Below, one piece after another: positions 13,084-13,937 of a DNA stretch of 37,745 bases. Origin of the DNA: Candidatus Rokubacteria bacterium 13_1_40CM_68_15 (lineage in GTDB: Bacteria > Methylomirabilota > Methylomirabilia > Rokubacteriales > CSP1-6); assembly GCA_001917585.1 (NCBI GenBank), contig MNEG01000144.1:1-37745 (forward strand). The letters run 5' to 3'. The first letter of the stretch is position 1. Every line of letters starts with the position of its first letter. Both the position numbers and the translations under genes were made by a program. A model generated the notes under the pieces. It worked only from the letters and a program-made list of their open reading frames with translations, was not told where the DNA came from and did not search any database.

Positions 13084-13158
<75 letters not shown>

Positions 13159-13188: not shown

Positions 13189-13264
13189 GGCGGCGTAGCC
13201 AAGTGGCTAAGGCGGAGGTCTGCAAAACCTCTATGCAGCGGTTCGAATCCGCTCGCCGCCTCCA
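13189..13264 (+). tRNA. tRNA-Cys(GCA)
   Basis: The acceptor stem GGCGGCG pairs with CGCCGCC and is followed by TCCA (CCA encoded). The anticodon stem GAGGT/ACCTC encloses CTGCAAA, with anticodon GCA at 13222-13224. The T-arm AGCGGTTCGAATCCGCT is canonical. It lies 30 bp after tRNA-Gly, probably in the same transcript. Confidence 0.97.
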
Positions 13265-13287: not shown

Positions 13288-13374
13288 GGGGGCGTGGCGA
13301 AACTGGCAACCGCTAAGGGCTTAAAACCCTTCGCCCGCAAGGGCTTGCAGGTTCGAATCCTGCCGCCCCTACCA
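13288..13374 (+). tRNA. tRNA-Leu(UAA)
   Basis: An 87-nt class II tRNA with encoded CCA. The acceptor GGGGGCG pairs with CGCCCCT, with one G-U pair at the end. The anticodon stem AAGGG/CCCTT encloses CTTAAAA, with anticodon TAA at 13322-13324. A long variable arm precedes the T-arm GCAGGTTCGAATCCTGC. A LAGLIDADG reading frame is open through the 3' half of this tRNA and continues directly past its CCA. Confidence 0.95.
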
Positions 13375-13937
13375 ACTTCCTCTCAGTACCGCGCGTACGT
13401 ATATCTTCTCGGGATTTATCTCGGCGACGGTTGCCTCGCGTGGACCGGTCGCACGTTTCGCCTCCTCATCTATCTCAATGTGTCGCAGTCTGAAGTCATC
13501 CAGGAGTGTGTCGATGCAGTCACGATTCTCGTTCCGGAGCGACGCGTTGGCCTCGTTCGCCATGGCGCTCGCCGTGTGGCCGTGAGCAGCTACGCGCGCG
13601 CCTGGCGGGAGCTGTTTCCACAACACGGGCCCGGCCGGAAGCACACGCGGCGGATCGAGCTTTCTGCCTGGCAGCGCGGATTGGCGGACTTGTATCCGGC
13701 CGCCCTGGTTCGCGGTCTCATCCAGTCCGACGCTGCCGCCACCGCCGCGTCGTCAATGGAACCAACTATCCCGCGTATTCGTTCTCCAACCGGTCGGACG
13801 ACATCCTCGGGGTGTTTACCTGGGGCTGCGATCTGATGGGTGTACGCTGGCGACGGGCGAATCGGTCCACGATTTCCATTGCCCGCCGGCGCGACGTGGC
13901 CCTTCTCGACCACGTCATGGGAGTCGCCGATGTCTAG
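13375..13937 (+). pseudogene. LAGLIDADG homing-endonuclease relic abutting tRNA-Leu, frameshifted
   Basis: Right after the tRNA CCA the frame reads YLLGIYLGDGCLA, a LAGLIDADG helix (13405-13431). It continues with FPQHGPGRKHTRRIEL and LVRGLIQSD, the second helix region of a homing-endonuclease-like family that I recall chiefly from Actinobacteria. After GAC at 13729-13731 the frame drifts. One base later (the third forward frame) the expected ending resumes: YPAYSFSNRSDDILGVF, GVRWRRANRSTISIARR, and stop TAG at 13937. Adding one G after 13731 would restore SDGC and join the two parts. There is no ATG or plausible alternative start between the tRNA and the first motif; the only in-frame start candidates lie inside the tRNA gene (for example GTG 13294). 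It is either a decayed mobile gene or a sequencing slip. Confidence 0.8.

Follow-up and report, generated by a model that had tools for sequence, protein, structure and literature searches.

SegB, one of the tRNA-associated free-standing endonucleases of T4-like phages, is a GIY-YIG enzyme; the LAGLIDADG part of WhiA is degenerate; and engineered home-and-rescue drives combine a nuclease with a recoded, cleavage-resistant copy of its target gene. SegB cuts within tRNA genes and promotes inheritance of the region that contains them (PMC2988022, PMC13096335), and for SegB-type endonucleases no preference among isotypes was observed (PMC13096335). WhiA is a conserved regulator (PMC3781837). In mycobacteria, phage-like tRNA clusters with HNH endonucleases have been described that include a short-variable-loop tRNA-Leu(UAG) (PMC6582537).

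The DNA analysed here, referred to as the window, is a stretch of 37,745 nucleotides that constitutes contig 11 of the 4.1 Mb metagenome-assembled genome of Candidatus Rokubacteria bacterium 13_1_40CM_68_15. It probably holds a decayed member of a mobile homing cassette, in which an HTH-LAGLIDADG nuclease and a tRNA-Leu travel together and replace the resident tRNA. As with SegB and the other tRNA-associated endonucleases of T4-like phages, the genes of this family stand beside tRNAs and appear to spread by recombination. However, SegB is a GIY-YIG enzyme of phages, whereas this family combines an HTH with LAGLIDADG motifs (its predicted fold is LAGLIDADG and not GIY-YIG), is found mostly on bacterial chromosomes, at tRNA-Leu in nearly all cases, and, unlike SegB, appears to replace a single tRNA gene by one of different structure. 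The mycobacterial clusters resemble the family in their short-variable-loop tRNA-Leu, horizontally moved DNA and endonuclease gene, but they comprise many tRNAs together with HNH enzymes, while here a single tRNA is exchanged at its own locus. We found no earlier report of the family, or of a nuclease gene exchanging a single tRNA for a structurally different one, in a search of openly accessible journal papers.

Results

Structure of the window locus

The window contains a tRNA-Gly, tRNA-Cys, tRNA-Leu cluster that recurs in most related loci (Table 1), and Rfam detected these three tRNAs in the window and nothing else. The preliminary description of this DNA had noted a LAGLIDADG frame that lacks its own start codon and stays open upstream, through the tRNA, as far as GTG 13294, and this was confirmed by ARAGORN, Rfam and direct reading of the frame. 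The reading frame through tRNA-Leu(UAA) has no stop and shares its phase with the LAGLIDADG frame, which opens with AYVYLLGIYLGDG..., 18 nt past the CCA, and no ATG, GTG or TTG occurs in the 18 nt between the CCA and AYVYLLGIYLGDG. The frame reads YLLGIYLGDG...LIQSD. Because it breaks at ~13729-13733, directly after LIQSD, with the remainder (CRHRRVVNGTNYPAYSF...) in a different frame, the copy is a pseudogene as assembled. Both motif aspartates lie in the first frame, and the glycine that follows the second lies past the break. No second convincing copy of the gene was found elsewhere in the window's genome.

Table 1. Features of the tRNA cluster and the adjoining LAGLIDADG frame, in window coordinates.
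Feature	Position	Strand	Identification and remarks
tRNA-Gly(GCC)	13084..13158	+	ARAGORN, Rfam RF00005; heads the conserved Gly-Cys-Leu cluster
tRNA-Cys(GCA)	13189..13264	+	ARAGORN, Rfam
tRNA-Leu(UAA), class II, long variable arm, CCA encoded	13288..13374	+	ARAGORN, Rfam
GTG, furthest-upstream in-frame start codon, within tRNA-Leu(UAA)	13294..13296	+	
TTG, second in-frame NTG, variable arm/T stem of tRNA-Leu(UAA)	13345..13347	+	
18-nt trailer from CCA to LAGLIDADG core, encodes TSSQYR, without start codon	13375..13392	+	
LAGLIDADG core, N-terminal two thirds, with FPQHGPGRKH and motif 2 ending LIQSD	13393..13731	+	
Motif 1, LLGIYLGDG, of the LAGLIDADG core	13405-13431	+	
C-terminal third of the same LAGLIDADG protein in shifted frame, NGTNYPAYSFSNRSDDILGVFTWGCDLMGVRW...	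13728..13937	+	aligned with relatives
Stop codon of the shifted C-terminal frame	13935-13937	+	

Pfam and NCBIfam scans of the window's LAGLIDADG fragments gave no match, and the copy was placed by direct alignment with relatives, defined as proteins with an HTH and a two-motif LAGLIDADG part. Most relatives have their own start codon and a transposase-type N-terminal HTH followed by the LAGLIDADG part; because of this, the window copy is, by comparison, a shortened, 5′-truncated form in which the HTH has been lost.

Predicted fold of the full-length protein

Among 32 full-length relatives, Pfam LAGLIDADG_3 was detected in 30 and HTH_23 likewise in 30, and the family gave a profile match to I-AniI. 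An AF2 model of one full-length member (L054; pLDDT 92) contains two LAGLIDADG repeats, and Foldseek matched it to I-Tsp061I, I-AniI and I-DmoI, with WhiA structures also listed. The aspartates of the YLGDG and (S/A/T)DG motifs are invariant in the 32 aligned relatives. By predicted fold and motif aspartates, the family is at the protein level a LAGLIDADG homing endonuclease, its cleavage activity being putative, and the earlier assignment of the frame to a homing-type protein is supported to this extent. I-Tsp061I, I-AniI and I-DmoI share with the family the predicted fold, the two LAGLIDADG motifs and the conserved aspartates; they are intron-encoded, whereas the family is non-intronic, fused to a transposase-type HTH and accompanied by a tRNA gene.

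Linkage of the family to tRNA genes

When 95 genomes of the phylum were searched, 17 had a match, the window's own among those listed, and every match is immediately 3′ of a tRNA-Leu(UAA), in most cases within the Gly-Cys-Leu cluster. An alignment-based scan of genome contigs recovered >500 relatives. Among the best 80, which were kept and come from Rokubacteria, Chloroflexi and Actinomycetota, every one has a tRNA within ~500 bp, a tRNA-Leu (CAA, UAG, UAA or CAG) in 78 cases and a tRNA-Trp in 2. An evenly drawn sample of Actinomycetota added 15 further loci (L192-L206), all beside a tRNA (14 Leu, 1 Trp). A small clade of the nuclease (L068, L107, L205) stands beside tRNA-Trp(CCA) in place of tRNA-Leu.

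The gene was present in 85 of 121 Streptomyces genomes, and tRNA-Leu(CAA) lies 80-480 bp upstream of the matched part in 80/80 of the genomes in which both were located. With ~68 tRNAs in 8.3 Mb, we estimate that a random gene of a Streptomyces genome would fall this near to any tRNA in ~1/100 of cases. Since all other matching genomes of the phylum, and the relatives from other phyla, also have the gene beside a tRNA, nearly always a tRNA-Leu, the adjacency is far beyond chance by these counts. A tandem nuclease pair stands behind one tRNA-Leu(CAA) in two Streptomyces genomes (G131:C1:2578979-2580340 and G143:C50:6985-8341), as if the site had been invaded twice, and in Mycolicibacter icosiumassiliensis the same nuclease sequence occurs by tRNA-Leu(UAG) in two loci (L092, L094), ~10 kb apart and inverted.

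These loci bear on the earlier proposal that the family often lies directly at tRNA 3′ ends and uses them as its site. The association itself was borne out: every relative locus read adjoins a tRNA, and several genes (L023, L041, L054, L071, L104) start 4-8 nt past the tRNA 3′ end. Most homologues have a start codon of their own and an HTH, which the preliminary description had named as a sign of simple 5′ truncation, and this applies to the window copy. The tRNA 3′ end as specific site did not hold up. The tRNA is just upstream of the gene in most relatives, but the two are divergent in mycobacteria (UAG) and the tRNA is downstream in one actinobacterial group. By the exchange data given below, the mobile unit is the tRNA gene together with the nuclease gene, not an element specific for 3′ ends.

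Searches with tblastn of GenBank phages and of plasmids gave no match to the nuclease. Six viral candidates (L028-L033) were excluded, as they carry YLLGVYLGDG only, have no tRNA and look like a different LAGLIDADG family.

Exchange of tRNA classes in Streptomyces

The single tRNA-Leu(CAA) gene of Streptomyces is of class I (74-77 nt, short variable loop) in some strains and of class II (83-87 nt) in others. Class I genes were found with the nuclease gene in 49 strains and without it in 23; for class II the numbers were 31 and 7. Both classes occupy one syntenic locus with flanks common to both, and intact, decayed and empty states of this locus coexist, the decayed ones being partial or stop-broken copies of the nuclease gene.

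On a tree built from 4.15 kb of upstream flank in 39 strains, tRNA class is scattered as at random (13 changes, vs. a shuffled mean of 13.2). In a set of 20 strains with intact genes, the number of changes in class was 9 for the flank tree and 2 for the nuclease tree, against a shuffled mean of ~6.9, and 0/500 shuffles were as low as the value for the nuclease tree; the strains for these trees were picked to hold both classes, which biases the frequencies, but the two trees are contrasted on the same rows. By this comparison tRNA class follows the nuclease, not the host. The tRNA isoacceptor label is likewise clustered on the nuclease tree. The coexistence of occupied and empty alleles, and a conflict between trees that points to spread faster than host descent, are traits of homing elements.

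Alignment of sister strains located the borders of the exchanged segment. L135 and L170 are 94.6% identical until 41-45 bp before the tRNA, unlike across the tRNA and HTH, and alike again from the C-terminal half of the nuclease on. Between L153, which lacks the nuclease, and L166, which has it, the unlike stretch begins 82-87 bp ahead of the tRNA and ends 152 bp past it in L153 and ~810 bp past it in L166. Overall, the upstream breakpoints lie 41-87 bp ahead of the tRNA, and the downstream ones fall at the nuclease gene or past it. No breakpoint was detected in the same-class pair L144/L145. As a control, tRNA-Leu(CAG) in the same Streptomyces sample had one length in 116/116 genomes matched.

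These data allow the possibility to be weighed that the nuclease gene is a passenger, and that tRNA-Leu was swapped by ordinary horizontal transfer and homologous recombination. Streptomyces strains of either tRNA class without the nuclease gene exist, and the near-identical flanks make plain recombination possible. We nevertheless regard this explanation as unlikely in view of the near-absolute linkage across phyla, in several orientations and with different isoacceptors, the control tRNA-Leu(CAG) that shows no class change, the clustering of the tRNA label on the nuclease tree and the conservation of the catalytic aspartates.

It is still less likely that the protein is a domesticated DNA-binding regulator of the adjoining tRNA-Leu, comparable to WhiA with its HTH and inactive LAGLIDADG part. 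The architecture is the same in both, and WhiA structures are among the Foldseek matches. Unlike the conserved WhiA, however, the family is patchy (85/121 Streptomyces genomes, some copies partial or stop-broken) and appears mobile, its swapping goes with the tRNA and not with vertical descent, and both motif aspartates are invariant; it shows neither the vertical conservation nor the degenerate catalytic motif of a regulator of the WhiA type.

Phage forms, nested tRNAs and displaced tRNA fragments

In one phage contig (L026), a 5′ piece of a class II tRNA-Leu (GCCGGTGTGGCGGAATTGGCATAC) precedes the HTH; next come an in-frame class I tRNA-Leu(CAA) and the LAGLIDADG part, and last a 3′ tRNA-Leu piece (GGGTTCGATTCCCTCCACCGGTA) that overlaps the nuclease stop codon. 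The anticodon arm of the broken tRNA-Leu is missing from both fragments. A 5′ tRNA-Leu piece together with a nested tRNA-Leu(UAA) was found in L022. In L071 the 3′ piece of a different tRNA-Leu lies at most 3 nt after the nuclease stop, with a second such piece 195 bp on, and L206 has an intact tRNA-Leu(CAA) along with the 3′ part of another tRNA-Leu. Displaced tRNA fragments were present in these four loci only (twice in L071). Because the pieces break off between D arm and T arm, they suggest a cut site near the anticodon/variable-arm region of tRNA-Leu. A second tRNA-Leu-like sequence in L026 (4798-4930) also seems to be interrupted between the D arm and the T arm.

The nested gene would be translated through its tRNA, since the frame is open in three lineages and the tRNA has the same position after the HTH in each. 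In a protein model of L026, the tRNA-encoded stretch is partly helical (residues 45-54). Linkers of Chloroflexi members were considered as fossils of nested tRNAs and rejected at the DNA level, where they score no better than codon shuffles; the linker of L027 was rejected as well, as it has no Rfam match.

A viral scan with a class I tRNA pattern identified many phage tRNA-Leu of class I, and no nuclease was found beside a viral class I tRNA-Leu apart from the L026 contig. Class I tRNA-Leu that carries the GGTGTANCCCAANNGGCAGAGG motif is frequent among viral contigs (L207-L235), and these may be the source of bacterial class I tRNAs.

The broken tRNA of L026 also bears on the idea that the locus is a remnant of an intron or intein, of archaeal or group I type, within tRNA-Leu. 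LAGLIDADG proteins often reside in introns, and the nearest folds are intron-encoded. We consider this explanation extremely improbable, however, as the window and nearly all relatives have a complete tRNA-Leu without interruption, the three tRNAs are all that Rfam reports for the window, and splicing could not restore a tRNA from the L026 fragments, which have no anticodon arm. An intron with rejoinable exons is refuted for the loci read, where flanking exons of a complete tRNA are absent.

The HTH-less form in Rokubacteria

Exchange of tRNA class extends to the window's own family, in which tRNA-Leu(UAA) is of class I in eight genomes and of class II in most others, including some with the same genus code. 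At the Gly-Cys-Leu locus, L186, with a class I tRNA, and L177, with a class II tRNA, share 90% identity until 8 and 26 nt before the tRNA. L010, L013 and L019 have a class I tRNA nested in frame, after the HTH and ahead of the LAGLIDADG part, and their C-terminal parts are broken.

Other arrangements were observed at these loci. In several Rokubacteria (L007, L009, L010 and L012), tRNA-Cys and tRNA-Leu are separated by a conserved gene for a small protein (MAELIKRVGPPKATDLKGDEFTWTIQL..., ~100-125 codons) that the window lacks. The tRNA-Leu(UAA) of L183 (1676-2020) is inverted relative to tRNA-Gly and tRNA-Cys, and L174 (G074:C57:7324-7424) apparently has a repeated class I tRNA-Leu(UAA), the two copies being 71 nt apart and the first possibly incomplete.

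For intact HTH-less copies from Rokubacteria, dN/dS was ~0.15-0.3, a signal that may include, inseparably, selection predating the loss of the HTH; the near-identical pair L012/L191 gave 0.53, with few changes. Of the 13 HTH-less Rokubacteria copies whose junction can be read, 11 have the LAGLIDADG frame in phase with the tRNA frame; the exceptions are L004 (trailer of 56 nt) and L191 (35 nt), and the in-phase trailers have seven different lengths (18, 21, 27, 36, 45, 48 and 57 nt). Were the phases free to vary, the probability that six independent length changes would all be multiples of three would be ~0.001, a value to be read with the relatedness of the copies in mind. Because of that relatedness, the conserved junction phase provides moderate support for expression through the tRNA. 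An in-phase NTG in the variable arm occurs in all class II relatives examined, where it is also ordinary tRNA-Leu sequence, and translation could plausibly begin within the tRNA in the window's lineage.

The HTH-less form was probably expressed in this lineage, given the dN/dS of ~0.15-0.3 and the single junction phase over seven trailer lengths. The same two results count against the view that the window copy is an ordinary 5′-truncated pseudogene, left after tRNA exchange and without expression of its own. That view concerns the window copy only and is compatible with the cassette reading; for this copy, which has no HTH, a frame break at ~13730 and no start codon, and several of whose sister copies are broken too, we consider it slightly more probable than its converse. 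Of the earlier suggestion that the frame is expressed from the tRNA transcript, what stands is that expression through the tRNA is plausible for the lineage, and a start within the tRNA no more than plausible.

Discussion

We favour the reading that nuclease and tRNA-Leu form one homing cassette. The nuclease would cut a resident tRNA-Leu gene of a sequence type unlike its own, and recombinational repair would copy in the cassette, comprising ~40-90 bp of upstream sequence, a full tRNA-Leu and the nuclease gene. The carried tRNA-Leu would escape recognition by its own nuclease and would rescue the loss of the one that was cut. The HTH is missing in the window's lineage, where the remaining core runs on in frame from the native class II tRNA-Leu(UAA); in the window copy the frame itself is broken. 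Nuclease activity, a cut site in the anticodon/variable-arm region and immunity of the carried tRNA are steps that we infer from sequence. Cutting followed by repair from the cassette would explain the linkage, the isoacceptor clustering on the nuclease tree, the swapping and the fragments. As a counterpoint, many strains keep a swapped tRNA without the nuclease; rescue may be dispensable, depending on whether tRNA-Leu(CAA) is essential.

On a further step we are evenly divided, namely that the family represents a natural home-and-rescue drive, in which competing cassettes, each with a tRNA-Leu of one type and a nuclease directed against the other, mutually replace one another at single loci, while phage forms and some Rokubacteria forms nest the rescuing tRNA in frame, so that one stretch of DNA would be both tRNA and protein linker. 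Compared with engineered home-and-rescue drives, such a system would be natural and bacterial, and the rescue would be a tRNA, with an immunity that is putative.

tRNA genes are regarded as among the most stable parts of genomes, yet sister strains of Streptomyces can differ in the class of a leucine tRNA gene, which changes together with a homing-type nuclease gene. Should the nuclease be what drives the swap, the family would be a natural counterpart of engineered home-and-rescue gene drives, with a directly testable cutting target, and would provide a mechanism for the replacement of tRNA genes and for the entry of phage-type tRNAs into chromosomes. In the nested HTH-tRNA-LAGLIDADG genes, one stretch of DNA would serve as tRNA gene and as coding sequence, a rarely seen dual use.
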